NCBI RefSeq assembly: GCF_002024165.1
Contig: NZ_MWQN01000001.1
Location: 2,170,001 to 2,234,000 of the forward strand
Origin: Embleya scabrispora
GTDB taxonomy: Bacteria; Actinomycetota; Actinomycetes; Streptomycetales; Streptomycetaceae
Direction of reading: 5' to 3'
Length of the DNA: 64,000 nt
Part shown: positions 8,442 to 20,203 of the stretch, piece by piece
Position numbering within the stretch: the first letter of the stretch is position 1
Layout of the letters: each line of letters begins with the position of its first letter
The notes under the pieces: model-generated
Seen by the model: only the letters and a program-made list of their open reading frames with translations
Told to the model about the DNA's origin: nothing
Databases searched by the model: none
Made by a program: the position numbers and the translations under genes

Positions 8442-10100
8442 TCACATGCGCTCGGGGGCGGACACCCCCAGGAGGGCGAGGCCGTTGGCCACCACGGTTT
8501 TCGCGGCTTCGGCCAGCCACATTCGGGCGTACGTCAGGTCGGTGACCGCTTCCTCGCCCTTCGGCAGGATCTGACAGTGGTCGTAGAAGCGGTGGTACGT
8601 GCCGGCCAACTGTTCGAGGTAGCGCGCGACGTGGTGCGGCTCGCGCATCTCGGCGGCCTTGGCGACCACGCGCGGGAACTCGCCGAGCATGCCCAGCAGG
8701 TCGGACTCCCACTCGGTGGAGAGCAGTTCCGGCTTGAACTCGCCCTTGACGATGCCGCGTTCGGCCGCCTTGCGCTCGACGGAGGACATCCGCGCGTGCG
8801 CGTACTGAACGTAGAACACCGGGTTCTCGTTCTTGTGCGACGTGAGGATGTCGATGTCGAGGGTGATGGTGGAGTCGGTGGACGAGCGGGCCAGCGAGTA
8901 GCGCGCGGCGTCGACGCCGATCCACTCCACGACGTCGTCGATGGTGATGATGTTGCCCGCGCGCTTGGACATCCGGACCTCTTCGCCGGCGCGCATCATC
9001 TTCACGAACTGGCCGACGATGACCTCGATGTTGTGCTCGGGGTCGTCGCCCGCGCAGGCCACGATCGCCTTGAGCCGCCCGACGTAGCCGTGGTGGTCGG
9101 CGCCGAGCATGTACACGGCGACCTCGTTGCCCCGGTCGCGCTTGTTCAGGTAGTACGCGGCGTCGGAGGCGAAGTAGGTCTTCTCACCGTCGGACTTGAT
9201 CAGGACACGGTCCTTGTCGTCCCCGTAGTCCGTGGTGCGCAGCCAGATCGCGCCGTTGTCGTCGTAGACGTGGCCCTGCTCGCGCAGCCGCTCGATCGCC
9301 TTCTCCACCGCGCCGGAGGCGTGCAGCGTGGTCTCGGAGAACCAGACGTCGAAGTGCGCGCCGAAGTTCTCCATCGAGCGCTGGATCTCGGCGACCATCA
9401 GCCGCAGTCCGGTGGCCCGGAAGATCTTCTCCTGAAGGGCCTCGTCCATGCCGAGCACGTCGGGGTGCTCGGCGAGGATGTCGGCGGCGATGTCGTTGAT
9501 GTACGCGCCGACGTAGCCGTCCTCGGGCACGGGCCGCTTGTTCGCCGCCGCCATCAGCGACTTGCCGAACTTGTCGATCTGTACGCCGGCGTCGTTGATG
9601 TAGTACTCGGTCGTGACGTCGGCGCCGGACGCGCGCAGGATCCGCCCGAGCGAGTCGCCGACGGCGGCCCAGCGCACCCCGCCGATGTGGATCGGCCCGG
9701 TCGGGTTGGCGGACACGAACTCAAGGTTGATCTTCAGCCCGTCGAACGCGTTGTTGCTGCCGTAGTCGGCGCCGGCGTCGACGATGGCGCGGGCCAGCTC
9801 GCCCTGGGCGGCGGTGTCGACCGTGATGTTGAGGAAGCCGGGACCGGCCACGTCGACCTTCGTGATGCCGGGCACCCGCGCGATGCGCGCGGCCAACAGC
9901 TCGGCGATCTCCCGCGGCGCCCGCTTCGCCGGCTTCGCGAGCTGCAGCGCGATGTTCGTCGCGTAGTCGCCGTGCTCGCGGTTCTTCGGTCGCTCCACCG
10001 TCGTGCTCTCGGGCACGGCAACGGCGAGCTCGCCCGCCTCGACGGCGGCACGAACCGCGGACAACACTGACTGCGAAAGCTCTGCGGGGGTCACGCGCAC
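8442..10100 (-). CDS. argS: Arginyl-tRNA synthetase
   Basis: Class I aminoacyl-tRNA synthetase charging tRNA-Arg. The N-terminal additional domain is followed by the HIGH-type motif in SANPTGPIHIGGVRWAA, the KMSKS-type motif in EVRMSKRAGNIITIDD and the C-terminal DALR anticodon-binding domain (VQYAHARMSSVERKA to the end, LGVSAPERM). Length is 552 aa. Incidentally, its substrate tRNA-Arg(CCG) is encoded 590 bp away on the other strand. Confidence 0.97.
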   Translation of the reverse strand: MRVTPAELSQSVLSAVRAAVEAGELAVAVPESTTVERPKNREHGDYATNIALQLAKPAKRAPREIAELLAARIARVPGITKVDVAGPGFLNITVDTAAQGELARAIVDAGADYGSNNAFDGLKINLEFVSANPTGPIHIGGVRWAAVGDSLGRILRASGADVTTEYYINDAGVQIDKFGKSLMAAANKRPVPEDGYVGAYINDIAADILAEHPDVLGMDEALQEKIFRATGLRLMVAEIQRSMENFGAHFDVWFSETTLHASGAVEKAIERLREQGHVYDDNGAIWLRTTDYGDDKDRVLIKSDGEKTYFASDAAYYLNKRDRGNEVAVYMLGADHHGYVGRLKAIVACAGDDPEHNIEVIVGQFVKMMRAGEEVRMSKRAGNIITIDDVVEWIGVDAARYSLARSSTDSTITLDIDILTSHKNENPVFYVQYAHARMSSVERKAAERGIVKGEFKPELLSTEWESDLLGMLGEFPRVVAKAAEMREPHHVARYLEQLAGTYHRFYDHCQILPKGEEAVTDLTYARMWLAEAAKTVVANGLALLGVSAPERM

Positions 10101-10124
10101 AAGGGTAGGCGACCCGCCGACCGA

Positions 10125-10141
10125 CCCGCCCGGCGGGCGGG
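10125..10141 (-). terminator. Short GC hairpin after response regulator
   Basis: CCCGCCC-GGC-GGGCGGG perfect stem in the 46-bp gap between the response-regulator stop and the argS start. It could weakly terminate the upstream gene or lie in the argS leader. Confidence 0.45.
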
Positions 10142-10146
10142 GTAGG

Positions 10147-10557
10147 TCATTCGGGTGACAGTCCGGTCCCCGGCTCCGGCGACAGCGCCCGCACGAGCCG
10201 AATCAACTGCTCGGGATGAAACGGCTTGGTCAGATACCCGTCGACCCCCACCGCCCGGGCCCGCGAGAAATCCTCGTCCTGCGCACAGGCACTGATCATC
10301 AAGATCTTCAGCCCCTTGGTCCGCGGATCCGCCCGCAACCGCGCAGCCGTCCCGATCCCGTCCAGATGCGGCATGACCACGTCGAGCGTCACCAGATCCG
10401 GCCGCACCTCGTGCACGAGCCGCAGACACTCCTCCCCATCGCGGGCGGTGCTCACCACGAACCCCTCCAGCCGCAGATTGACCGCGATCAGCCGCCGAAT
10501 CACCTCGTCGTCATCCACGACAAGGACCCGCGCCGCCTCACCACCAATCCCGCCCAC
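10147..10557 (-). CDS. Single-domain response regulator (CheY-like)
   Basis: A stand-alone receiver domain: acidic pocket VLVVDDDE, phospho-acceptor Asp in LVTLDVVMPHLDG and conserved Lys in GYLTKPFHPEQL. There is no output domain (about 136 aa), so it probably acts by protein-protein contact in a phosphorelay. The GTG at 10557 is the first plausible start before the receiver. The frame extends upstream to 10650 through a low-complexity Gly/Trp/Pro stretch that looks non-coding. No partner kinase is visible. Confidence 0.85.
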   Translation of the reverse strand: MGGIGGEAARVLVVDDDEVIRRLIAVNLRLEGFVVSTARDGEECLRLVHEVRPDLVTLDVVMPHLDGIGTAARLRADPRTKGLKILMISACAQDEDFSRARAVGVDGYLTKPFHPEQLIRLVRALSPEPGTGLSPE

Positions 10558-10687
10558 GCCAGTGAGGTTAGGCCCCCCACCCCCACGAGGGGGCCCGATC
10601 CGCACATCTCGTCCCCACCCCACCCACCCCCACCCCCAACCCCTTCGCAACCGCCCCCGAAGAACTGGTAATGTTCACGTCACCCGA

Positions 10688-10759
10688 GCCCCTGTAGCTC
10701 AGGGGATAGAGCAACGGCCTCCGGAGCCGTGTGCGCAGGTTCGAATCCTGCCAGGGGCA
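10688..10759 (+). tRNA. tRNA-Arg (anticodon CCG)
   Basis: Complete cloverleaf. Acceptor GCCCCTG pairs with CAGGGGC. The D-arm is GCTC...GAGC, the anticodon stem ACGGC/GCCGT closes loop CTCCGGA with anticodon CCG, and the T-arm is GCAGG-TTCGAAT-CCTGC. The discriminator is A and CCA is not encoded. The 3' half is the integration site of the following element. Confidence 0.96.
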
Positions 10760-10760
10760 C
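10715..10760 (+). repeat. attL: 46-bp tRNA 3'-end core
   Basis: The 46 bp from the anticodon arm to the end of tRNA-Arg are repeated exactly at 19060-19105. This is the classic signature of tyrosine-recombinase insertion into a tRNA gene; the left copy keeps the tRNA intact. Confidence 0.95.
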
Positions 10761-10787
10761 CTCAACCGCTGTGACCAGCGGAAACAG

Positions 10788-10850
10788 GCCGCAAAGCTGA
10801 ACGGTCCACCGTATTTGACGGTGTTAGACCAGACGCCTTGCGGCTTTTTT
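10788..10850 (+). terminator. Stem-loop with T6 tail after the tRNA
   Basis: GCCGCAA (10788-10794) pairs with TTGCGGC (10838-10844), followed by TTTTTT. The enclosed part folds further (GGTC/GACC and ACCGT/ACGGT). It probably ends tRNA transcription before the integrase gene. Confidence 0.6.
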
Positions 10851-10898
10851 GTTGCGTAGGAGCGCCTGTCTGACACCCCTGACGATGGGGACCGGCGC

Positions 10899-11966
10899 AT
10901 GACCGCCACTGTGACAACCGGGCGCAAGAGCCCGTTCCGAATCGCCGCCATGGGCGACCAGACGCACGCGCTGAAGGCGCGGGGGCCGGTGAAGGGGTCG
11001 AGCGCCGACGCTCGCGCCCGACAGTTGGCCGAGTACACCAGCCACTTGCGCACCATCAACAACCGCTACGGCCGGCCGTACGCACCGCGCACGATCGGCG
11101 CGTACCGAGACGCGGTGATCGCGCTCGACAAGTGGATGACCGAAAAGAAGGTCACAGGCGACTTCACCGCGTGCGACACGGACACCCTGAACCGCTTCTT
11201 CCGCTGGTACCACCGCGAACACGACCAGGCGACCGGCGACACGTACACGGGTGCCACGAACACGAAGCAACGCAACCTACGACACCTGTTCACATGGCTT
11301 CAGGAGGAGTACGACCACGAACACCCCTACACGGGCAAGGGGTTGGTCCGGTACTCGGCACCGAAGGCGGGGCGCCCACAGACGCTGTCCCGGGACTTCG
11401 TCGGGGACATGCTCAAGGCCACGGGCAACAGCAGTCCGCGCGTGCGCGACTTCGAGACCGTCCGGGATCACGCGATCATCCGCGTACTGACCGACGGTGT
11501 ACGCGCAACAGAGCTGCTCATGCTCCAGGTCTCGACCGTGCTTCTCGACCAGGGCGTTGCACAGATCGTGCCGCTCAAGAGCGGCCGGGGCGCCGCAAAG
11601 GGGCGCCTGGTCCCCTTGCAGCCCAAGACCGTGATCGCGCTGCGCCGCTACCTCCGGGCACGCGAGACGCACAAGCTGTCTCGTTCCGAGTGGTTGTGGC
11701 TGGGTACGCGTGGACGCGGTCACCTGAAGTACAGCGGGTTGTATCGCATGCTCAACCGGCGGGCCGAACAGGCCGGTTACGGCGCAGTCGCGCCGCACAT
11801 GTTCCGGCACACCTGGGCTGATGACCTGTTGGCGTCGGACGTGTCTGAGGAGGACGTCATGGAAGCCGGCGGATGGACCGACCGCAGCATGCTGCGTCGG
11901 TACGCGGCGGACATGGCCTCCAGCCGGGCAGTGACCGCCGTACAGGGTCTCGGCGACCGGTACTGA
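10899..11966 (+). CDS. Tyrosine recombinase / integrase
   Basis: Site-specific recombinase adjacent to attL, expected to catalyse attP x tRNA integration. The N-terminal SAM-like core-binding domain spans about residues 35-150 and the catalytic domain follows. Visible catalytic residues are R202 (GVRATELL), H300-x-x-R303 (HMFRHTW), the GGW variant of the second His box, and Y335 (SMLRRYAAD). At 355 aa it is a compact integrase. GGGGA lies about 7 nt before the ATG. No excisionase gene of the usual MerR-like type is obvious in the element. Confidence 0.94.
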   Translation: MTATVTTGRKSPFRIAAMGDQTHALKARGPVKGSSADARARQLAEYTSHLRTINNRYGRPYAPRTIGAYRDAVIALDKWMTEKKVTGDFTACDTDTLNRFFRWYHREHDQATGDTYTGATNTKQRNLRHLFTWLQEEYDHEHPYTGKGLVRYSAPKAGRPQTLSRDFVGDMLKATGNSSPRVRDFETVRDHAIIRVLTDGVRATELLMLQVSTVLLDQGVAQIVPLKSGRGAAKGRLVPLQPKTVIALRRYLRARETHKLSRSEWLWLGTRGRGHLKYSGLYRMLNRRAEQAGYGAVAPHMFRHTWADDLLASDVSEEDVMEAGGWTDRSMLRRYAADMASSRAVTAVQGLGDRY

Positions 11967-11989
11967 CCCCACCGATTCCGAGGCATAGC

Positions 11990-12022
11990 AAAGCCCCCGA
12001 CCGCTGGTCGATCGGGGGCTTT
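11990..12022. terminator. Integrase terminator (bidirectional)
   Basis: AAAGCCCCCGA (11990-12000) pairs with TCGGGGGCTTT (12012-12022). The stem is flanked by A and T on either side, so it can serve both the integrase and the convergent GntR gene. Confidence 0.85.
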
Positions 12023-12099
12023 GACGGATTTTGAACTTCCCGGAACGCCAAGGAAGTTCGCCAGAAGCCTGGGAGGGACACGCCCTCCCGGGCTCCCCG

Positions 12100-12861
12100 T
12101 TACGGTTGCGGGTTGTACGCGTAGCCGAGTGTGAACCTGGGAGGAAGGCACCACTCGCCGTACTCGATTATCCCGTCATCATCCGCCCACCGGTGTGCCC
12201 CGGCGAGGATCGGAGCACCGATCGGCAGCCCAAGGTGGCTGGCTTCCCGGGCGTCCGCCGGACGGGCGTGCATGTCATCGCGCGCATCCGTGACATGACG
12301 CTTCGTAGCCTCAAGGACCTTGGCCGTGATGTCGTCCGCCTTGCTCCTGGACGTGCTGAGCAGCGCGGGCACCAGTACGGCAAACGGCGCGGGATACCAG
12401 TTGACACCGAATAGTGTCTTGGTCTGTCCGCGACCGGCCGTGAACTCCCGCCGTACGACCTGATCGCCGTGGTCAAGGTCGAAGATCTCGGCAACGTAGA
12501 GCGGTGGCACGACCAATGCCGCCGACGTCACGGTGATGGTCTCGCCGTCCATGAGGTGAGTACGCAGCCGTATCACGCGCCCGAGCCGATCCCGGGCGGT
12601 TGCTGCCGTCTTCGGGTCGTCCGCCACGAACGTGCCACGCGGAGACGTCCGGATGTACCCCTCTACCTGAAGTTGCTGGAGTGCGCGTCCGACCGTCGCC
12701 GTAGCCACTCCCCACGTGTTCGCAAGTTCCTTGTTACTCGGAAGCCGATCACCGCCCGGCAATTCGCCGCTGAGGATCTTGGATCGGTAGTGATCTGCAA
12801 TTCGAGCAAATGTGCGGTTGCTGCTGTCGGGCACCACGTCGCTCCAAAGCTTGGCAGGCAA
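12100..12861 (-). CDS. GntR/HutC-family repressor of the element
   Basis: The N-terminal winged helix (IADHYRSKILSGELPGGDRL, then SNKELANTWGVATATVGRAL) is joined to a C-terminal UTRA effector domain (about residues 95-250, ending FTLGYAYNPQP). The TTG start at 12861 is preceded by GGAGAG at 10 nt. GntR proteins of this type (for example KorSA of pSAM2) keep streptomycete integrative elements quiescent. Three CTAG(T/C)TCAC sites lie directly upstream between this gene and the rightward small-gene operon, so repression of both directions is likely. Confidence 0.88.
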   Translation of the reverse strand: MPAKLWSDVVPDSSNRTFARIADHYRSKILSGELPGGDRLPSNKELANTWGVATATVGRALQQLQVEGYIRTSPRGTFVADDPKTAATARDRLGRVIRLRTHLMDGETITVTSAALVVPPLYVAEIFDLDHGDQVVRREFTAGRGQTKTLFGVNWYPAPFAVLVPALLSTSRSKADDITAKVLEATKRHVTDARDDMHARPADAREASHLGLPIGAPILAGAHRWADDDGIIEYGEWCLPPRFTLGYAYNPQP

Positions 12862-12862
12862 A

Positions 12863-12943
12863 CTAGTTCACTCTCCAGCCTAGGTGAATTCCATCCGAAC
12901 CGTAGAGAGCAACCTAGTTCACAGATACAGTGGACTAGCTCAC
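12863..12943. promoter_or_regulatory. Divergent control region with three GntR-type operator repeats
   Basis: CTAGTTCAC at 12863-12871 and 12914-12922 and CTAGCTCAC at 12935-12943 form direct repeats. Each sits in an imperfect palindrome close to GTGnnCTAGnnCAC (best match GTGGACTAGCTCAC). The second and third are 21 bp apart, two helical turns. The region separates the TTG-started GntR gene from the rightward gene at 12970. Confidence 0.65.
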
Positions 12944-12969
12944 TCGATGCGATGAGGGCGGAGTCTGGC

Positions 12970-13134
12970 ATGGAGCAAAACGCGTACGAACGTTCGCGCC
13001 ACAACGAGCGCAGCGATGGGCGGACGCTGCCACTGAACTCGGTTGAGCGTGAGCAGCGGGCGCAGATCATCCGCAAGGCGCGTGAGCGATACCGCCGAAT
13101 CGTCGGAACCTCACTGCCCCGGTTGACGCCGTGA
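12970..13134 (+). CDS. Small charged protein, first gene of rightward operon
   Basis: 54 aa with many Arg, Glu and Asn residues (MEQNAYERSRHNERS...; REQRAQIIRKARERYRR predicts one amphipathic helix). GGAG lies 6 nt before the ATG; an alternative ATG is at 12951. It overlaps the next gene by GTGA, implying translational coupling. No family recognised. It is the first gene downstream of the operator cluster. Confidence 0.6.
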   Translation: MEQNAYERSRHNERSDGRTLPLNSVEREQRAQIIRKARERYRRIVGTSLPRLTP

Positions 13135-13430
13135 GTCGGGCAGCGGGCTTCGTTGTCGATTCTGACGGAGTAGCGGCGCCGGTTGTCGTGGCGCGCGAGT
13201 TGCCCCCGCGTGAGGAGCCCCGGCCGGTTGTCGAGCGGTACGCCGTTGGTGATTGGGTCGCCCCGCTGCCCGGCCGAGGTCACGACGACTACCCCGCCGG
13301 ACGGGTCGAGCGGGCCGAGGACTCTCCCGGACTCGACAACGACCAAGTGGTCATGGTGCAAGCCGGCGGGGACGGCATGCCATACCTGCTGAAGGGCTCC
13401 GAGTTGTACCGGGTCAAGCCACCGCGCTGA
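13131..13430 (+). CDS. Hypothetical protein of the element
   Basis: 99 aa; the GTG start overlaps the previous stop. The mid part VGDWVAPLPGR...DDYPAGRVERAEDSPG...QVVMVQ and the C-terminal LLKGSELYRVKPP suggest a small SH3-like beta barrel of the kind found in accessory element proteins. No function can be assigned. Confidence 0.6.
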   Translation: MSRAAGFVVDSDGVAAPVVVARELPPREEPRPVVERYAVGDWVAPLPGRGHDDYPAGRVERAEDSPGLDNDQVVMVQAGGDGMPYLLKGSELYRVKPPR

Positions 13431-13524
13431 CCCCCCGCATTCGCCCCGCCCGGTGGTTCTGGGGAACGTCGGGCGGGGTCTGCAAGGCACCGACACAGCA
13501 CGCCTAGCGAGAGGTGGAACGAGC

Positions 13525-13968
13525 ATGACAAGCACGATCACACCGACCGCCACGACGGGGGTTCCTGTCCCCGACGCGGTACGCGCAAGGCTCATCACCC
13601 GCATCCGTGCGGACCGTCCCGAGATCGGCGCCGAACTCGCCGACCGGATCGTGACGGGTACGGCCGTTTTCCTCGCGGTCGGCGCGGCGAACCCGGAAGC
13701 GCGCATGACTCCGTCCGCACTGGTTGACGTCGGTTGGCACGCGTGGGTGCTCCACACGATCGACTACGCCGAGTACTGCGAGCGGATCGGCCGCTTCGTC
13801 CACCACGTACCCGACCCGGCGCCACGCACCATGGCAGACGCACGGGCCGAGGTCTCCCGTACCGCAGAGCGGATCAAGGCGGCCGGCCACCCGGTCGATG
13901 CCGAACTGTGGACGGTCGCCGCCGCCGACTGCACCCAGTGCCACGCGGGATGCTCCGACAGTCCGTGA
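13525..13968 (+). CDS. Glycine-rich-domain (GRDP)-like protein
   Basis: 147 aa. The ATG at 13525 has GAGAGG 9 nt upstream. The core (RMTPSALVDVGWHAWVLHT followed by IDYAEYCERIGRFVHHVPD) matches the pattern of glycine-rich-domain proteins that carry a conserved W-H...YxxFC...HH motif. The C-terminus ends in a Cys-rich tail (DCTQCHAGC). Biochemical role unknown. It sits between the small genes and the kinase, probably in one transcript. Confidence 0.6.
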   Translation: MTSTITPTATTGVPVPDAVRARLITRIRADRPEIGAELADRIVTGTAVFLAVGAANPEARMTPSALVDVGWHAWVLHTIDYAEYCERIGRFVHHVPDPAPRTMADARAEVSRTAERIKAAGHPVDAELWTVAAADCTQCHAGCSDSP

Positions 13969-14056
13969 CCCCGGACAGAGCAGGGGCGCCCCCGAGCCGG
14001 ATCGCTCGCCCGGGGGCGCCCCGCCACCGACCACCCTCACGAGAGAGCGCCATACG

Positions 14057-14941
14057 ATGCCCCGTCGCCACGCATGGACCGAGCTACCCGCATCGGTTCG
14101 GGACACGATCGAACAGCACACCGGACCCATCCGGTCGATGCACGCGCCCGAGTTCGGCAGGTCCTCGGAGTTCTCGGCGACCCTCGAAACACGCGTCGGG
14201 CGGGTGTTTTGCAAGGGGGTCCGGGCGGATCGGCCGTACGCGTGGACGCACCGCAACGAAGCCGCCGTAGCGCCGTTCCTGCCCGCGTTGCTCGCGCCCC
14301 GGTTGCTGTGGAGCATCGTGCGCGACGGGTGGCACATGCTGGGGTTCGAGTACGTACCCGGCCGGCACCCGTCGCTGTCGCCGACGTCCGGCGACCTGGA
14401 CATGGTTGGCGACCTGGTTGTGACAATGGCCGAAGCGTTGACGCCGTGTCCGTCCGCCGCGCTGCACTCGATCGCCGACAGGTGGGGAAGCGCTCCCGGT
14501 TGGGCTGCCGTCTACGCGAAGTTGCCGAACGACCTTGACCCGTGGGCACGTACGAGCATCGGGCGACTCGCGACACTCGAACGGGGCGCGTTCCTTGACG
14601 GGGACACCCTCGTTCACTCCGACCTTCACCCCGCCAACCTGCTCACCCAAGACGGTCGGGTACGCGTGATTGACTGGGCATGGTCGGCACGCGGCGCCGC
14701 GTGGATCGACTCCGCTTACGTGGTCGTCCGACTCATGCACGCCGGCCACACACCCGAAGCGGCCGAAGCGTGGGCCATGCACGTGCCCGCGTTCGCGAAG
14801 GCGCCCGATCCGGTGATCGACGCGTTCGCCGTGAAGCTGTCCGGCATGTGGGAGTACATCGCCCGTTCGCCGAAGGCACGTGCGCATGCTCGATCGCTCG
14901 CCGACACAGCACGCGCTTGGGCCGCCTACCGGCTCCAGTAG
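14057..14941 (+). CDS. Aminoglycoside-phosphotransferase-like kinase
   Basis: 294 aa. The kinase-like catalytic loop HSDLHPANLL (Brenner motif) and the metal-binding VIDWAW (DFG equivalent) are intact. The N-terminal lobe is present (RVFCKGVRADRP contains a plausible ATP Lys), as is the hinge GFEYVPGRHP. The family phosphorylates small hydroxylated molecules, and many members on actinomycete elements have no known substrate, so antibiotic resistance should not be assumed. ATG start after the CACGAGAGAGCG leader. Confidence 0.8.
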   Translation: MPRRHAWTELPASVRDTIEQHTGPIRSMHAPEFGRSSEFSATLETRVGRVFCKGVRADRPYAWTHRNEAAVAPFLPALLAPRLLWSIVRDGWHMLGFEYVPGRHPSLSPTSGDLDMVGDLVVTMAEALTPCPSAALHSIADRWGSAPGWAAVYAKLPNDLDPWARTSIGRLATLERGAFLDGDTLVHSDLHPANLLTQDGRVRVIDWAWSARGAAWIDSAYVVVRLMHAGHTPEAAEAWAMHVPAFAKAPDPVIDAFAVKLSGMWEYIARSPKARAHARSLADTARAWAAYRLQ

Positions 14942-15047
14942 CACCGCTCACGACGAAACCGTGACGACCAAATGAAGAAAGCCCCGGCGACCGCGCTCAC
15001 GGTCCCCGAGGCAGCCATCAGCTGACCCCTTGCAAGGAGCTGACGAC

Positions 15048-15398
15048 GTGACCCACTTTATCGCTGCCATTTTCGGATGGCTGCGCCGACTGCTCACCCC
15101 GCCGAAGTCGGCCGGAAAGCACGCCCGGCAAGGTAACCGGACCATCCGCCCACGCCCCGCGCGGCCCGTACAGCCCAAGCCGCAGAGCCGCCCGAAAGGC
15201 GCGTGGCTCGACTTCCCACCGGCCGCCCCGGCGCCCCTCAAGCCCCCGGCCCCGGTTCCGTGGTCCACAGACCTACCCGCCGACGACGGCTCAGAGGACG
15301 TCGGGCGGTTGGTTCCTCGGTACATGCTGCTCGCGCCGCACGAACAGGCAGAGGTATGCAGGCAGCAACTTGCGGGCACGGCACGGGTGTTCGCGTGA
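15048..15398 (+). CDS. Small Pro-rich protein with N-terminal hydrophobic segment
   Basis: 116 aa. The GTG start is fixed by AAGGAG 8 nt upstream. A short hydrophobic N-terminus (MTHFIAAIFGWLRRLL) may be a membrane anchor. It is followed by a basic Pro/Arg-rich linker and a C-terminal part that may bind a partner (VPRYMLLAPHEQAEVCRQQ). Overlaps the next gene by GTGA. Unknown family. Confidence 0.55.
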   Translation: MTHFIAAIFGWLRRLLTPPKSAGKHARQGNRTIRPRPARPVQPKPQSRPKGAWLDFPPAAPAPLKPPAPVPWSTDLPADDGSEDVGRLVPRYMLLAPHEQAEVCRQQLAGTARVFA

Positions 15399-15622
15399 TA
15401 CCCGCGCGGTCGTACCGCCACTGCTGCCGGTGTGACGTCACCACCGGGCTTGTGCCCGTGCAGGTGATCGAGTCCGGGCGTGGCGCGTCCGGCTGGACGC
15501 TGTGGGCGTGCGCCGAGCACGCATGCGCCTTCCCGCCGCTGCCGGTTGCGTCCACACCATCCGAGGCCAGCGCGCTTCCGACACACGGGCATCGGACGGC
15601 TATTCGGCCCCTGCCTCGTTGA
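15395..15622 (+). CDS. Cys-rich mini-protein, possible zinc binder
   Basis: 75 aa, GTG start overlapping the preceding stop. CCRCD near the N-terminus and CAEHAC further on give a CxxC-type plus CxxHxC arrangement that could hold one zinc ion. Last gene of the rightward operon; a strong hairpin follows 16 bp later. Function unknown. Confidence 0.5.
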   Translation: MIPARSYRHCCRCDVTTGLVPVQVIESGRGASGWTLWACAEHACAFPPLPVASTPSEASALPTHGHRTAIRPLPR

Positions 15623-15637
15623 GCGTGTAAACGCGAG

Positions 15638-15664
15638 AGAGCCCCCGCCGTCGGCGGGGGCTCT
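15638..15664. terminator. Convergent terminator inside the element
   Basis: Perfect 12-bp stem AGAGCCCCCGCC / GGCGGGGGCTCT with loop GTC and a short T-rich tail. It separates the rightward operon from the leftward capsid unit. Confidence 0.85.
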
Positions 15665-15699
15665 GTTGCGTTCCCGGCCACGTAGGGCCGCTGGAAGGT

Positions 15700-16929
15700 C
15701 TAGCGGGCGGTCTTGCGGGGCGCAGGCGCGGCGGCCTCGGCCGAGAGCGTCTGTGCGCCCTGGAGCGCTCCGGCGGTCCCGGTGAGGATGCGCACGGCCT
15801 TGATGTCGGACAGGCCGACGCCGGCCCATCGGGACGTGACGCGCGCGACGGTCTTGTCTTCCGTGAACAGGACTTGATCGGAGAACGCGAGGACGACATC
15901 CGACCGGAGCCCGGTGAACACCTGCGTGGGGTCCATGACGATGACGGTTCCCGGGGCAAGCCGTGGCGCGGGGATCAGGTTCGCGCCCCACACCTGTCGG
16001 GGTCCGTCCTGCGCCACGAACGGTGACGAGTGGTAGGTGCCGGCGGTGGACGCCTTCAACTTGCGGACGACGTTGAACGTTGCCGGGTCCACCAGGATCG
16101 CTGACGGGACGCCGCCCTCGGCTTCGATCGCTGCCATCTCGTCACTGACGTCATCCAGGGTGACCGCAGCGCCGAGCGCCCGCTTCGACACACCGGGCGT
16201 GTTCAGCAGCCCCAACGGCTGTTTGACGCCGGACCCGTTCAGGAACAGGTCATCGACGGTCGCGCCGACCGACCGTGTCAGCGCGTCGGAGACCGACTGT
16301 CGGAAGTCGGTCGCCGAGTCCTCCAGCAACTCACTGGTGATCGTGATCATCTTCGCGACCTTGTACGCCCGGAAGCCGGCGTCCGACAGTTGCATGTCGG
16401 TCATGGGGATGGTCGCGCCCTCGGCGACGACGGACGCGGCGCCGTCGTCGCGCACAACCGGGATGACCATGGAACCGGCGTCCATGGGGATCAGGTTGAC
16501 GCCGGACGCGAGCACGGCCGACCGCTTGCGCAGGGACACCACGAACTTGTCGTAGACCGACTTGGGAACCGTCAGGCCGGCCGACGCTGGATCGGTGGTC
16601 AGCGCCCGAGCCTCTACGTACTCACGGGCCGACGGGATGCGGAAGTCCGTCCCGCCCCAACCGCCCCGCTCATCCGAGCGTGCACCGTTGGGGTTGAGGA
16701 TCGCGCCCACGCGGGACTCCATGGCCCGCTGTTCGGCCTCGGCCTCTGCGCGCGACACCAGGGCGTTCGCCTCGGCGGTCAGCTCGGTCAGCCGGCTGTC
16801 GAGCGCCTCCAGGCGCTTGCGCTTGTCGTCGGCGCCCATGGCCGTGTCGTCCTGCGTCCGGGTGTACTCGGCGAAAACACCGGCGCGGGTCTCCAATACG
16901 GCCTGCGCCTTCTGCTTTGCATTGGTCAA
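15700..16929 (-). CDS. HK97-type phage major capsid protein
   Basis: 409 aa. The TTG start is fixed by AAGGAG 8 nt upstream. An N-terminal helical delta/scaffold-like part (about residues 1-85, Lys/Glu/Ala-rich, coiled-coil-like) precedes the HK97 fold. The fold shows family hallmarks: GLTVPKSVYDKFV, IPVVRDDGAASVVAEGATIP, KMITITSELLEDS, LFLNGSGVKQPLGLLN, IPAPRLAPGTVIVMDP and a C-terminal P-domain strand. Normally this protein is cleaved by a prohead protease and assembles with a portal; neither is encoded nearby. The gene is full length with no frameshift, so it is likely under selection. Confidence 0.93.
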   Translation of the reverse strand: MTNAKQKAQAVLETRAGVFAEYTRTQDDTAMGADDKRKRLEALDSRLTELTAEANALVSRAEAEAEQRAMESRVGAILNPNGARSDERGGWGGTDFRIPSAREYVEARALTTDPASAGLTVPKSVYDKFVVSLRKRSAVLASGVNLIPMDAGSMVIPVVRDDGAASVVAEGATIPMTDMQLSDAGFRAYKVAKMITITSELLEDSATDFRQSVSDALTRSVGATVDDLFLNGSGVKQPLGLLNTPGVSKRALGAAVTLDDVSDEMAAIEAEGGVPSAILVDPATFNVVRKLKASTAGTYHSSPFVAQDGPRQVWGANLIPAPRLAPGTVIVMDPTQVFTGLRSDVVLAFSDQVLFTEDKTVARVTSRWAGVGLSDIKAVRILTGTAGALQGAQTLSAEAAAPAPRKTAR

Positions 16930-17007
16930 ATAGCGGTCTCCTTGTGACTCGACAACTCATGACAGGTGGGATGGGTGCTGCGGGGTGGCCTCGTGAAGCC
17001 GGCCCGC

Positions 17008-17205
17008 CTAGCGGGCCGTTCCGTGGCTGCGTCGCCACTCGGAAAGGGCCGTTCGGTACTCGGTGTCAAGCGCCTGCCGGGCGCCCTCCAGGCGCGCTCT
17101 GCGGGCTTGCCCCTTGCATCGCTCCCCGCAGTAGCGCGGCGGCCTTCCGGGGCCGCTGGGCGGGGGCAGGGGGCATGCGCAGGTAGAACATGAGCGGGTC
17201 TTGAT
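17008..17205 (-). CDS. Small Cys-rich zinc-finger-like protein (start codon unusual)
   Basis: About 65 aa: CSTCACPLPPPSGPG then RYCGERCKGQARRAR gives CxC/CxxC...CxxxC, a small zinc-ribbon pattern seen in actinophage and element mini-proteins, followed by a basic helix. In frame there is no ATG, and the GTG codons at 17277 and 17235 lack an SD. A perfect GGGGAGG (17211-17217) sits 5 nt before an ATC codon (17205), immediately ahead of the Cys motif. I take ATC as the probable start. It lies just upstream of the capsid gene in the same direction. Confidence 0.5.
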   Translation of the reverse strand: MKTRSCSTCACPLPPPSGPGRPPRYCGERCKGQARRARLEGARQALDTEYRTALSEWRRSHGTAR

Positions 17206-17277
17206 TCGAACCTCCCCAGTACGAGAAATGCCCACCGGGAATACCCGGCGGGCATTGCATAACGGGATATCCCTCAC

Positions 17278-17722
17278 TGGTTAAAGAGGCGACCGACCGA
17301 CCCCAAACCAGGGCTGAAATAGAGTGGCGTCGGTCACAATTGATACGTCACAACGGAATCCCGCTGCGGGCTTGACCGCAGGACGCACGACCGGTAGGCA
17401 TGACCGGCGCGACTCGCTACGGCTTCACCCTGGGTAGTCATTTCTGGAGATTTCGCGATTCTGTCGAAACGCGAAATGTCAACCCCCTGTCAATAATCAC
17501 TCTTTGTAATTGACTACCCTTAGTGACTTGTAACCCTTGGTGACATATGGGTAAAACGGACATGAAGGGCAAAGTGACCAATCACAAAAATTCGGACATT
17601 TCGCGCACATGAAAGTCCGAAGACCGAAGGGGGTCACCACCCTTCAGGTTTCAGACTTTACGACCGTACTTGCCCGCATTTGACCCAAAGAGGGTTGATG
17701 CGAGCTAGGTCACATATAGACA
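17278..17722. other. AT-rich control region of the element (promoter/origin candidate)
   Basis: About 450 bp without a gene, clearly richer in A+T than anything else in the window. It holds an 11-bp inverted repeat CGCGAAATGTC (17470-17480) / GACATTTCGCG (17595-17605). A second inverted pair is GGGTAGTCA (17432-17440) / TGACTACCC (17511-17519). ACCCTTAGTGAC and ACCCTTGGTGAC repeat 17 bp apart, and a hairpin has arms at 17591-17602 and 17611-17621. These look like protein-binding sites for replication or for control of the leftward capsid unit. Confidence 0.6.
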
Positions 17723-17911
17723 ATGAGTGTTGAATGTTCGATTTCATCAGATGTTGCATTCCGTGATTCCGTCACGTTCGGTACTCGGCGTGACGCCACT
17801 TCAGCCGCGCCGGTGTCGCTATGCGTGATGGCCATCAAGGTGACAGTCAGCTACTTGCTGACTGGCAACTACCTCGGTCGAGTAGCGACCGCGACACCCC
17901 GCCGCGCGTGA
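17723..17911 (+). CDS. Possible 62-aa ORF, weak
   Basis: ATG-started frame with no clear SD, coding MSVECSISSDVAFRDS... A shorter version starts at 17828. A perfect 8-bp inverted repeat (17844-17864) lies inside. An excisionase would be expected somewhere here, but I see no helix-turn-helix. Kept only as a candidate. Confidence 0.25.
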   Translation: MSVECSISSDVAFRDSVTFGTRRDATSAAPVSLCVMAIKVTVSYLLTGNYLGRVATATPRRA

Positions 17912-18081
17912 GCCCCCAGGGCGAAGCAGCTCACGAGTGAGACGTAAGGCGCTGGTCGTCCTCCGCTCTCCAGCGCCCACCCGTGCGCCGAGCCAACGCG
18001 GGCGCACACTTCGATTCAACGGTCTCGGGTAAGCCCATTCATGGGATTACCCGAGACTTCCTACGAATGCGTTACAGGCGC

Positions 18082-18636
18082 CTAGAAAGGCGCGGGTGTG
18101 CCATCGGGGCGCGGGGCGTCCGGCCACGCCCCATCAAACGGCGGATGAGATCCGCCGTACTGCTCGAATACATCCTTGGAAATGTCCGAAGGGCTTTTCC
18201 CTTCGGACATCCTTGCAAGCAGACGATCAAGGCGACGGGGCTTGGTGACCCGTCGCCTATTGAACGACCCTGTGTCGAGGGTCGTTCCGCTGATATCCGG
18301 ACCCCCGTCGGAGGGGGTCCGAGCGAACTGATCTTTACTTATATTGTGTTCCTCCAGGGGCACACTTCGCGCCCCTGGAATGGTCAACTCATAGACCTTC
18401 ACGCGCCGGTGCTTCCGGCCCGTATCGCGCAGCCATCCGGCCGCAACGAGCCTGCCAACGTGCTGGGTCACGTTGCCCCGCGATTGGCGCCTACAGGCCG
18501 CCACCGAGGCCATCGCCGGCCGAACCTCGGTACCGGTCCGGTAATCCCCCCACAGAGCCATGGTGACCCCCGTCAGCTTCAGGTGATCGGGAAGGTCCGA
18601 CTTCAGTACGGCGGACCGCCACGCGTACTCAGACAT
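18082..18636 (-). CDS. Winged-helix DNA-binding protein, putative replication initiator
   Basis: 184 aa from the ATG at 18636. The N-terminal half (MSEYAWRSAVLKSDLPDHLK, then LTGVTMALWGDY...RPAMASVAACRRQSRGN, VTQHVGRLVAAGWL) is a winged helix of the kind found in actinomycete plasmid/element replication proteins and in DnaD-like loaders. The basic C-terminus (NRRRVTKPRRLDRLLARM) could contact DNA. It is transcribed toward the AT-rich region. The replication role is inferred from fold and position. Confidence 0.6.
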   Translation of the reverse strand: MSEYAWRSAVLKSDLPDHLKLTGVTMALWGDYRTGTEVRPAMASVAACRRQSRGNVTQHVGRLVAAGWLRDTGRKHRRVKVYELTIPGARSVPLEEHNISKDQFARTPSDGGPDISGTTLDTGSFNRRRVTKPRRLDRLLARMSEGKSPSDISKDVFEQYGGSHPPFDGAWPDAPRPDGTPAPF

Positions 18637-19059
18637 CGTTGTCGCCGTTGTGCTGCTCCTCTGATCATTCACACACCAGGTCGGCCCCGGAACACAAAAG
18701 GGCCGGCCTCGGACTCTCATCCGACGACCGGCCCCGGTTCGTCCTGGGACCGTCCAACTCCGAGTTGGACTGACCGCGCATCGCGCGCGACTGCTTGCAC
18801 CGTCGCACGCCTCCTGACGCTCCGTCAACGGACTTCCGAGACACCAGCGCTACGCCCCCGACCGGCAGAGCTGCCTAAATGCCGTAGGGCGTCTTGACGG
18901 CGTCCGCTTGGAGCCGGATGCCCTAAGCACTGTTCATGACTGTGAGTTACCGCGAAGCTTGCCTAGGCCGTGCTACGCACACGGCCTCAGCCCCCATCGG
19001 CTTTCGGCCGTTGGGTTGACGCGCAGGTCAGCGCGTCGCTACGGTCCACTTAGACCGTT
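18637..19059. other. Right end of the element, hairpin-rich, no gene
   Basis: No supported gene. Inverted repeats: GGTCGGCCCC/GGGCCGGCC at 18679-18709, AGGCCGTG/CACGGCCT at 18965-18987, and CCC-CGGC/GCCG-GGG at about 18993-19015. Those close to attR could be integrase arm-type sites. Confidence 0.45.
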
Positions 19060-19105
19060 CGGCCTCCGGAGCCGTGTGCGCAGGTTCGAATCCTGCCAGG
19101 GGCAC
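19060..19105 (+). repeat. attR: second 46-bp tRNA-Arg core
   Basis: Exact copy of 10715-10760, lacking the 5' tRNA half, so it is not a gene. It marks the right junction of the element. Confidence 0.95.
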
Positions 19106-19123
19106 ACCGTTTGACCAGCAGAT

Positions 19124-19145
19124 ATGGCCCCTCACCAGGGGCCAT
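19124..19145 (+). terminator. Displaced hairpin next to attR
   Basis: ATGGCCCCT / AGGGGCCAT with loop CACC, followed by a T-rich stretch. It may be the original terminator of the tRNA-Arg gene, moved 8.3 kb away by the insertion. Confidence 0.6.
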
Positions 19146-19200
19146 TGCTGTTTGTGGGGTCTAGGCCATGTGCGGCCGTAGGTCGCGATGTGCAGCCCTG

Positions 19201-19470
19201 TCACGGGCGCCGTGGACTATTTGTGGACGAGCGTTCGATGTGTTTCCGCAGGTCAGGGCTTGGAGAGCCGCGAAGGCCTCGGGAGTCCAAGGCCTTCTTG
19301 TTGCGGTTGATCTCATGTTGCGCGTCGAGGCACTTCACGTAGTGGCTCATCAGGGTTGCCACCGGGTTGCCCGCTTGCGGGCCGCCTCCGCCGGTCCGGT
19401 GCAGGTGAGTTGCTGTCGAGCACCCGGGTGCGGATTGGTCGGGGGGCGACCTGTCGGGTCCAGGTGAAGT
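19201..19470 (-). pseudogene. C-terminal remnant of a second tyrosine integrase
   Basis: Read leftward, three successive frames give the usual end of an actinomycete integrase: VLDSNSPAP, then PAEAARK, then AGNPVATLMSHYVKCLDAQ and HEINRNKKALDS, stop at 19201. This parallels the family pattern VSTWLNSGVPAPEVARRAGHSV..LxxYxKCLDGQ. At least two frameshifts and loss of the N-terminal part make it dead. Its 3' end points to the att core, as in pSAM2-type elements. Confidence 0.65.
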
Positions 19471-20203
19471 GGGTGGGGAGGTCGGTCTGCTTCGTCTTGG
19501 GGCCGGGCGTGTGCGTGCGGGCGAGGGTGGTGTGAGTGGTGTCGTCTAGAGGTTCGGCGCTCGTCCGGGGTGCCTGCTGTGGCAAGGGCGTTAAGCGGGC
19601 TCAGAGTGTGTTCGCGTGAGCGTTCCGTGGTTCGGCCGTGTGGTGGTCGTACGTGCTTCGGGCGAGCGCGGGGTCCTTGGTGTGGTGTCTGGCGGCGGAG
19701 CGGCAGGGGCGTCTTCCCGAGGGCAGGTGGTGGGTCGGGCCGAGCCAGCGTGGGGAACGCGTGGGGGTGGATGGTGATGCATGTCGGGCGCGCCCGGTCA
19801 CCGGTGAGGGTCGCGCTGGTTGGGTGGTGGCGGTGGGTGTTCGTGCAGGCGGGGCGGTGCGGGGCACCGAGGCGTGGTCGGCCGCCGTGTCGTGTGAGGA
19901 GGATGCTCGCAGGGCTTCGTCGGTGGGCACGTCGACGTGGAGGTGGGTACCGGGCCAGGCGCACGGGTTGGGGCAATGGCGCGGCTTGGCGAACTGGTGG
20001 GCCCGGCTGGGGTGTTGCCTCCTCGGGTGATGCGCGTGAGGTCTCGGATCGCCTTGTCGTCGGTCAAGGCCGGGATGGTCACCGGCGCCTCGGTTCCCTT
20101 GGCCGTTCGATGGCGCGAGCGCCTACGTGCCGAATCATCCTCGCTGGGGAACCGGGCTTTCCGGAATGGGCGTTGCCGTTGCGTGCCCGCGGGGGTTTTG
20201 GGG
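19471..20203. other. Degenerate GC-rich region
   Basis: No gene recognised. Long open frames on both strands are low-complexity (Pro/Arg/His or Gly/Trp) shadows. A minus-strand GTG frame from 20082 begins VTIPALTDDKAIRDLTRITR and looks like a possible remnant of a real protein start, but it soon turns into low complexity. Confidence 0.4.

Follow-up and report, generated by a model that had tools for sequence, protein, structure and literature searches.

What does a phage-type major capsid protein (MCP) gene do in a region in which no portal, protease or terminase gene accompanies it? This question is raised by positions 15700–16929 of the 64,000-nucleotide stretch of Embleya scabrispora DNA that was analysed here (the window). 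A preliminary description of the locus had suggested that the protein might take over the protease and portal of a helper phage, poison the assembly of that phage, or form a stand-alone shell like an encapsulin.

Sequence and predicted structure of the capsid protein

The MCP open reading frame occupies exactly positions 15700–16929 on the minus strand and encodes 409 amino acids from a TTG start codon. Direct reading of the sequence showed a Shine-Dalgarno motif, AAGGAGA, at 16937–16943, seven bases 5′ of the TTG. The codon composition is gene-like (GC1/2/3 of 0.67/0.51/0.89), and the product matched Pfam PF05065 Phage_capsid at 6e-39 and the PHROG_10 major head protein at 1.2e-45. The profile match and the HK97 fold, the two marks of the PF05065 family, are both present, and the host genome contains the capsid gene once. 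Positions 15700–16929 are an intact, genuine HK97-fold MCP gene.

An AlphaFold2 model of the protein, made with a 21-sequence alignment (mean pLDDT of 77.6), begins with two long confident helices at residues 2–27 and 33–76, followed by a low-confidence linker at about residues 78–121 and then the HK97 core. Residues 1–76 are predicted to be a delta-like N-terminal domain with the layout of the type that is removed by a protease, and this region aligns with the MCPs of two related loci, L007 and L008. The model agrees with the earlier suggestion that a delta-like N-terminal region has been kept in this protein. Foldseek comparison of the model with HK97 Head II gave an E value of 2.2e-16 and a TMt of 0.76, and the top matches among solved structures were HK97 Head II, capsids of further phages, and those of gene-transfer agents and of SaPI1. 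The capsid of EcCI2, a capsid-forming PICI (cf-PICI; 9gyi), was found at rank 42 and the first encapsulin at rank 48, so that in the comparison with HK97 capsids and encapsulins that had been proposed for this protein, phage-type capsids ranked above the first encapsulin. Matches by phmmer to repeat proteins in the PDB were rejected as artefacts of one 25-residue stretch.

An HK97 fold alone is able to form closed shells, and the presence of an encapsulin among the structural matches, together with a related MCP (in L011) that would need no protease because its delta region is missing, would be in keeping with a compartment of the encapsulin kind that serves the element or the host. We consider a compartment of this kind very unlikely. 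Phage and gene-transfer-agent capsids match better, the delta-type N-terminus is retained in most members of the group described below, no cargo enzyme or cargo-loading partner was recognised beside the gene, and the family is associated with integrases, a small terminase subunit (TerS) and HNH nucleases. The encapsulin-like shell of the preliminary description is disfavoured on these grounds, the nearest structures being phage, gene-transfer-agent and satellite capsids.

Boundaries and gene content of the integrated element

The capsid gene lies within an inserted element of 8.4 kb at 10715–19106, as judged from 47-bp repeats at both ends and from an empty site in a congener that joins the two flanks. 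The integration target is a tRNA-Arg (CCG) gene identified by ARAGORN on the plus strand at 10688–10761, and attL, at 10715–10761 on the plus strand, covers the 3′ part of this gene and is identical to attR at 19060–19106 on the same strand. In the empty site of the congener (genome G031, locus L026), window positions 10177–10760 correspond to 2071–2643 and window positions 19060–19256 to 2598–2794, and the 46-bp overlap of these two matches is the att core. The GC content of the element is 0.66, compared with 0.71 and 0.73 in the flanks.

Next to attL, a tyrosine integrase is encoded at 10899–11966 on the plus strand (PF00589, 9.1e-21; phrog_1 integrase, 3.6e-25), and the element holds an integrase and an MCP within one delimited segment, the combination that defines candidate PICIs in Mycobacterium. 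A GntR/UTRA-type regulator follows at 12100–12861 on the minus strand (PF00392, 8.7e-12; PF07702, 1.5e-8). Two small plus-strand open reading frames, at 13131–13430 (called from codon composition only) and at 15030–15398 (likewise from codon composition), matched no Pfam or PHROG family. Between them, the plus-strand frame at 13453–13968 is without a Pfam match and encodes a 'W-H-x3-L-H-T ... V-H-H-x-P' pattern, which by eye resembles proteins in or near two of the related loci (L009 and L060). A phosphotransferase gene of the APH fold at 13724–14941 on the plus strand (PF01636, 8.9e-8) is carried as cargo, and its real start is probably a downstream internal ATG.

The frame next upstream of the capsid gene, at 17008–17277 on the minus strand, is small and zinc-finger-like, with a 'GRPPRYC' motif, and gave a weak match to phrog_16925 (0.0018); in L007 and L013 the MCP gene is likewise preceded by this motif. 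A repeat scan of the intergenic region at 17280–18080 showed inverted repeats around the repeated sequence ATTTCGCG, possibly an origin or an operator. The adjoining minus-strand gene at 18082–18828 encodes a winged-helix protein that resembles replication initiators through weak matches (phrog_11896 primosomal, 4.9e-4; phrog_391 replication initiation O-like, 0.0014).

Search for portal, protease, terminase and tail genes

In the open reading frames of the element that were scanned against Pfam and PHROG, no annotated structural or packaging family besides the capsid was found; the capsid, the integrase, the GntR regulator, the APH-like kinase and the weak replication-initiator match were recognised, and neither TerS nor HNH was. 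For the large terminase subunit (TerL) and the portal, profiles were seeded from the prophages of the host itself and built outward. Seeded TerL profiles were used instead of the Pfam model TerL_ATPase (PF03354) because the latter, rejected as a test of absence, is too insensitive and misses most phage controls as well as both host prophages. The seeded profiles detected the portal in 10 of 10 control loci with phage modules and TerL in 9 of 10, and found nothing at E < 10 in window positions 10001–20000 or in the 17 orphan loci, the window included. For the protease, absence rests on the Pfam S78 model PF04586, which was positive in all 10 control loci, since protease seeds from the host prophages missed the phage controls.

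The portal, TerL, protease and tail genes that stand near the MCP in a complete prophage are not found in the element, and neither are the protease, portal and terminases that accompany the MCP in cf-PICIs. The preliminary description of a lone MCP gene held: the reading frame is intact, its PF05065 match is strong (6e-39), and none of the three partners was found in the element.

A six-frame search of the whole host genome for portal and S78 protease likewise gave no match near the element and located only two distant places, at 0.5 and 3.07 Mb of the same contig and 1.7 and 0.9 Mb from the element, each inside an apparently complete siphovirus-type prophage. These prophages lie at about 0.48–0.51 Mb and 3.05–3.085 Mb of the host contig (loci L018–L021) and share a near-identical gene for a 95-aa protein near the putative lysis region. 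Packaging-site-like (cos-like) DNA common to the element and the two prophages did not rise above an equal-length control, and the MCP of one of them (prophage B) is only remotely related to the window MCP, so the resident prophages are not established as helpers. Matches by tblastx between the element and the prophages were broken up into fragments dispersed along the records and were disregarded.

Related elements with a lone capsid gene

No close relative of the window MCP was present in the genome-contig and viral-contig collections. Searches in the host family and class produced MCPs 28–34% identical to it. A profile built from four MCP sequences matched in 57 of 393 Streptomyces genomes, and the surroundings of 23 of these 57 were examined, giving 13 lone-MCP loci, one of them truncated. 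Altogether, 15 further integrase-bearing elements with a lone MCP were found; Streptomycetaceae contributed 14 of them, and the remaining one came from a different family of the same class. Their MCPs are diverged, and no portal, protease or TerL was found nearby. Among 26 related MCPs whose surroundings were read or tested, 10 are part of head modules in which a portal and a protease gene lie no more than about 3 kb away and 16 have neither nearby, and all nearest relatives of the window MCP belong to these 16. Two of the 16 loci are a truncated copy (L061) and one near a contig end (L073). No Pfam HK97-type portal was detected anywhere in 12 of the genomes that host lone MCPs; a helper in these hosts would therefore be an incoming phage.

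The genes near the lone MCPs include integrases (serine enzymes in most cases, tyrosine enzymes in some, and for the most part identified by eye), genes for winged-helix proteins or primases, with clear primases in L011 and L062, and HNH nucleases. An HNH gene adjoins the MCP in L057 and L058, and L007 likewise has one. In L059 (genome G1032; 11383–11841 and 12800–13126), a TerS gene (PF05119 Terminase_4, 5.8e-21) is present with two HNH nucleases. TerS, HNH and primase genes are typical of PICI-type satellites. Repeats that mark att sites were found in L007, with 19-bp copies at a distance of 9.5 kb, and in L011, with 22-bp copies at a distance of 9.2 kb. The three elements delimited by such repeats, the one in the window among them, measure 8–10 kb. 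Alignment A1 was too diverse for use in a pattern scan. A scan of this type with the L007 group returned seven Streptomyces loci, some already found, and one IMG/VR contig that carries an integrase-like gene, a winged-helix-like frame and a lone MCP.

Individual elements differ in what else they carry. Profiles that recovered nearly all phage controls found no siphovirus-type tape measure in the further lone-MCP elements. A separate scan showed that L013 (G614:C5; 5166–8858 and 9065–10252), the serine-integrase element from the other family of the class, has a tape measure of its own: its lone MCP is accompanied by a tail tape-measure protein of 1,230 aa, with no portal or protease match, and this protein may set the tail length on the tail of a helper. 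In L011 (9091–9513 and 9544–10386), the MCP without a delta region is preceded by a separate 140-aa coiled-coil-like frame, which might be a scaffold. Insertion sites recur: L007, L057, L059 and L061 are all located at one LysE-type transporter gene, either within it or next to it, and L058, L060 and L081 are next to one fumarate-hydratase-like gene. A pair of genes for proteins of about 172 aa and about 280 aa, the latter an XRE-type regulator, is found in or beside L007, L010, L057, L058, L060, L080 and L081; a similar pair in the phage-plasmid NBC_01335 is annotated as DUF6879 and helix-turn-helix. Some copies are decaying, as seen in the truncated MCP of L061 and in the transposase-like genes that apparently adjoin the MCP in L080 and L081.

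Evolution of the lone capsid proteins

A maximum-likelihood tree was made of 27 MCPs, 16 from orphan loci and 11 from phage modules. Orphan status changes once on this tree, compared with a mean of 8.9 changes for shuffled labels, and none of 500 shuffles was as low. The branch that separates the two groups has weak support (69/60), with the split kept in 70% of bootstrap trees, and at that support the orphan MCPs appear to fall on one side of the phage-module MCPs; the window MCP is on a long branch.

For nine pairs drawn from the orphan MCPs of the related elements, whole-gene dN/dS ranged from 0.13 to 0.26, with synonymous sites near saturation. Within these proteins, pN/pS was 0.16–0.30 in the core and 0.48–0.82 in the N-terminus, which evolves faster. 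The pair L072/L073 (44% identical, dN/dS of 0.63) was left out, since N-terminal extensions and divergence make its value unreliable. Judged from these ratios, the related orphan MCPs are under purifying selection. Neutral evolution of the capsid gene, which the preliminary description had named as an outcome that would speak against it, is contradicted by these relatives, the nearest relative of the window MCP itself being 33% identical.

The window MCP is about 24–31% identical to known phage MCPs, with no record covered over more than 80%. In a search of 50,697 phage records, no match over more than 80% of the length was found for the window MCP or the L007 MCP and one weak match of this kind for the L010 MCP, compared with 377 matches, phiC31 gp36 included, for a control phage-module MCP.

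These results bear on the explanation that the element is a decaying prophage remnant, in which the integrase and the capsid gene are chance survivors of a complete phage. Decay does occur in the family, as indicated by the truncated L061 and by the apparent transposase genes beside the MCP in L080 and L081, and the GC content of 0.66 against 0.71–0.73 in the flanks marks a foreign insert. A remnant is nevertheless quite unlikely here, given that the att repeats, the integrase and the MCP with its start signal are all intact, that the same gene set is found in 16 diverged elements, that the related orphan MCPs are under purifying selection and cluster apart from phage MCPs, and that the phage records hold so little near full-length similarity to the orphan MCPs in comparison with the control.

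A second explanation is interference, in which the lone MCP would enter or compete with the shell of a helper, or titrate its protease or portal, and would so protect the host and the element, with packaging of the element secondary or absent. A lone MCP gene would suffice for this role, which accounts for the missing partners, and satellites and prophages are known that keep invading phages from assembling their virions (PMC10884400, PMC10945586). Direct co-assembly with a known phage is not obvious because the window MCP is so diverged from all known phage MCPs. Moreover, the integrase, replication initiator, TerS and HNH genes in the family indicate transfer and not only defence, and purifying selection across the whole core suits assembly more than simple titration. 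Interference as the main role is thus unlikely.

A satellite that may encode its own shell

On this evidence, we consider it fairly likely that the 8.4-kb element is a phage satellite with its own small shell, for which the portal, protease, terminase and tail would come from a helper phage. This reading starts from what was observed, namely the insertion in tRNA-Arg, the intact att repeats, integrase and MCP, the absent partners and selection on related MCPs. The number of related elements with a lone shell gene suggests parasites that borrow the rest from a co-infecting phage. Infection by a helper phage, or induction of one, would lead to excision of the element and replication by its own putative initiator; its MCP would then assemble into a small shell on the portal of the helper, whose protease would trim the delta domain and whose terminase would fill the shell, steered in some sister elements by their own TerS and HNH, before the tail of the helper would finish the particle. 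With its own shell protein, such a satellite could set a shell size that fits an 8–10 kb genome and would not need to remodel the capsid of the helper. The earlier suggestion that the protease and portal of a helper are hijacked is in this way the best supported of the options, through the delta-type N-terminus, the absence of partners in 16 elements, the TerS and/or HNH genes of sister elements and purifying selection on related MCPs; it stays at the level of what we infer from genes, and no helper for the element was identified among the two resident prophages.

Small islands with an integrase and an MCP in Mycobacterium, phiRv1 and phiRv2 included, have been proposed as candidate PICIs; their integrases are of the tyrosine type at tRNA genes or of the serine type at other sites, and their MCPs are diverse (PMC10654092). 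Some of them carry replication, terminase or scaffold genes, and phage induction has not been shown (PMC10654092). Compared by description, the elements here are alike in being small integrated elements defined by integrase and MCP (PMC10654092). They differ in belonging to another host family, and the Streptomycetaceae elements are without protease, portal and TerL. By comparison, phiRv1 and phiRv2 also encode a prohead protease. We infer that the lone-MCP elements are a variant of these already described, still unproven candidate PICIs.

In cf-PICIs, the protease, the portal, the head-tail connectors and the two terminase subunits are all supplied by the satellite (PMC10690885). They share with the elements here a satellite-encoded HK97-fold MCP, as reflected in the EcCI2 match (9gyi), and the pairing of TerS and HNH that is seen in one sister element (L059), whereas their head and packaging kit of protease, portal, connectors and terminases is missing here. 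TerS, TerL, portal, MCP, scaffold and adapter are all present in MulchRoom and MiniFlayer, two satellites of Streptomyces (PMC10690885). Like the elements here, these satellites encode an MCP, and their capsids are small and they depend on a helper, as the elements here would. In contrast to them, the elements here have only the MCP, plus TerS and HNH in one case.

P4, SaPI and PLE build their shells from the MCP of the helper and themselves provide a scaffold or a factor that redirects shell size. The elements described here resemble them as small elements that would need the portal, terminase and tail of a helper and that presumably also aim at a small shell, and differ from them in encoding the MCP itself. 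A possible parallel in Bacillota is pCD-ISS1 of Clostridioides difficile (NZ_MG266000.1; L077), which is about 8 kb and has an annotated MCP as its sole listed structural gene, plus a helicase; unlike the elements here, it is a plasmid and not integrated, and its MCP is about 24% identical over part of the length. No paper that describes the lone-MCP form in Streptomycetaceae came up in the literature searches made, although such a paper may exist.

A broader reading, which we hold tentatively and with somewhat less than even confidence, is that capsid-only satellites are an old and diversified lineage of Streptomycetaceae whose lone shell protein is fitted to the portals and proteases of incoming helpers. 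This would be a third packaging strategy, beside remodelling of the helper capsid (P4, SaPI, PLE) and the full head kit of cf-PICIs. If true, one capsid gene would suffice to hijack a phage. The satellite MCP would then have to work with a portal and a protease that are not its own, recognising the former and being cleaved by the latter, and the MCP–portal and delta–protease interfaces could be tested with elements of only 8–10 kb. It may also explain why integrases in actinobacterial genomes are found next to single genes for a 'phage major capsid protein', genes that are readily mistaken for phage remains.
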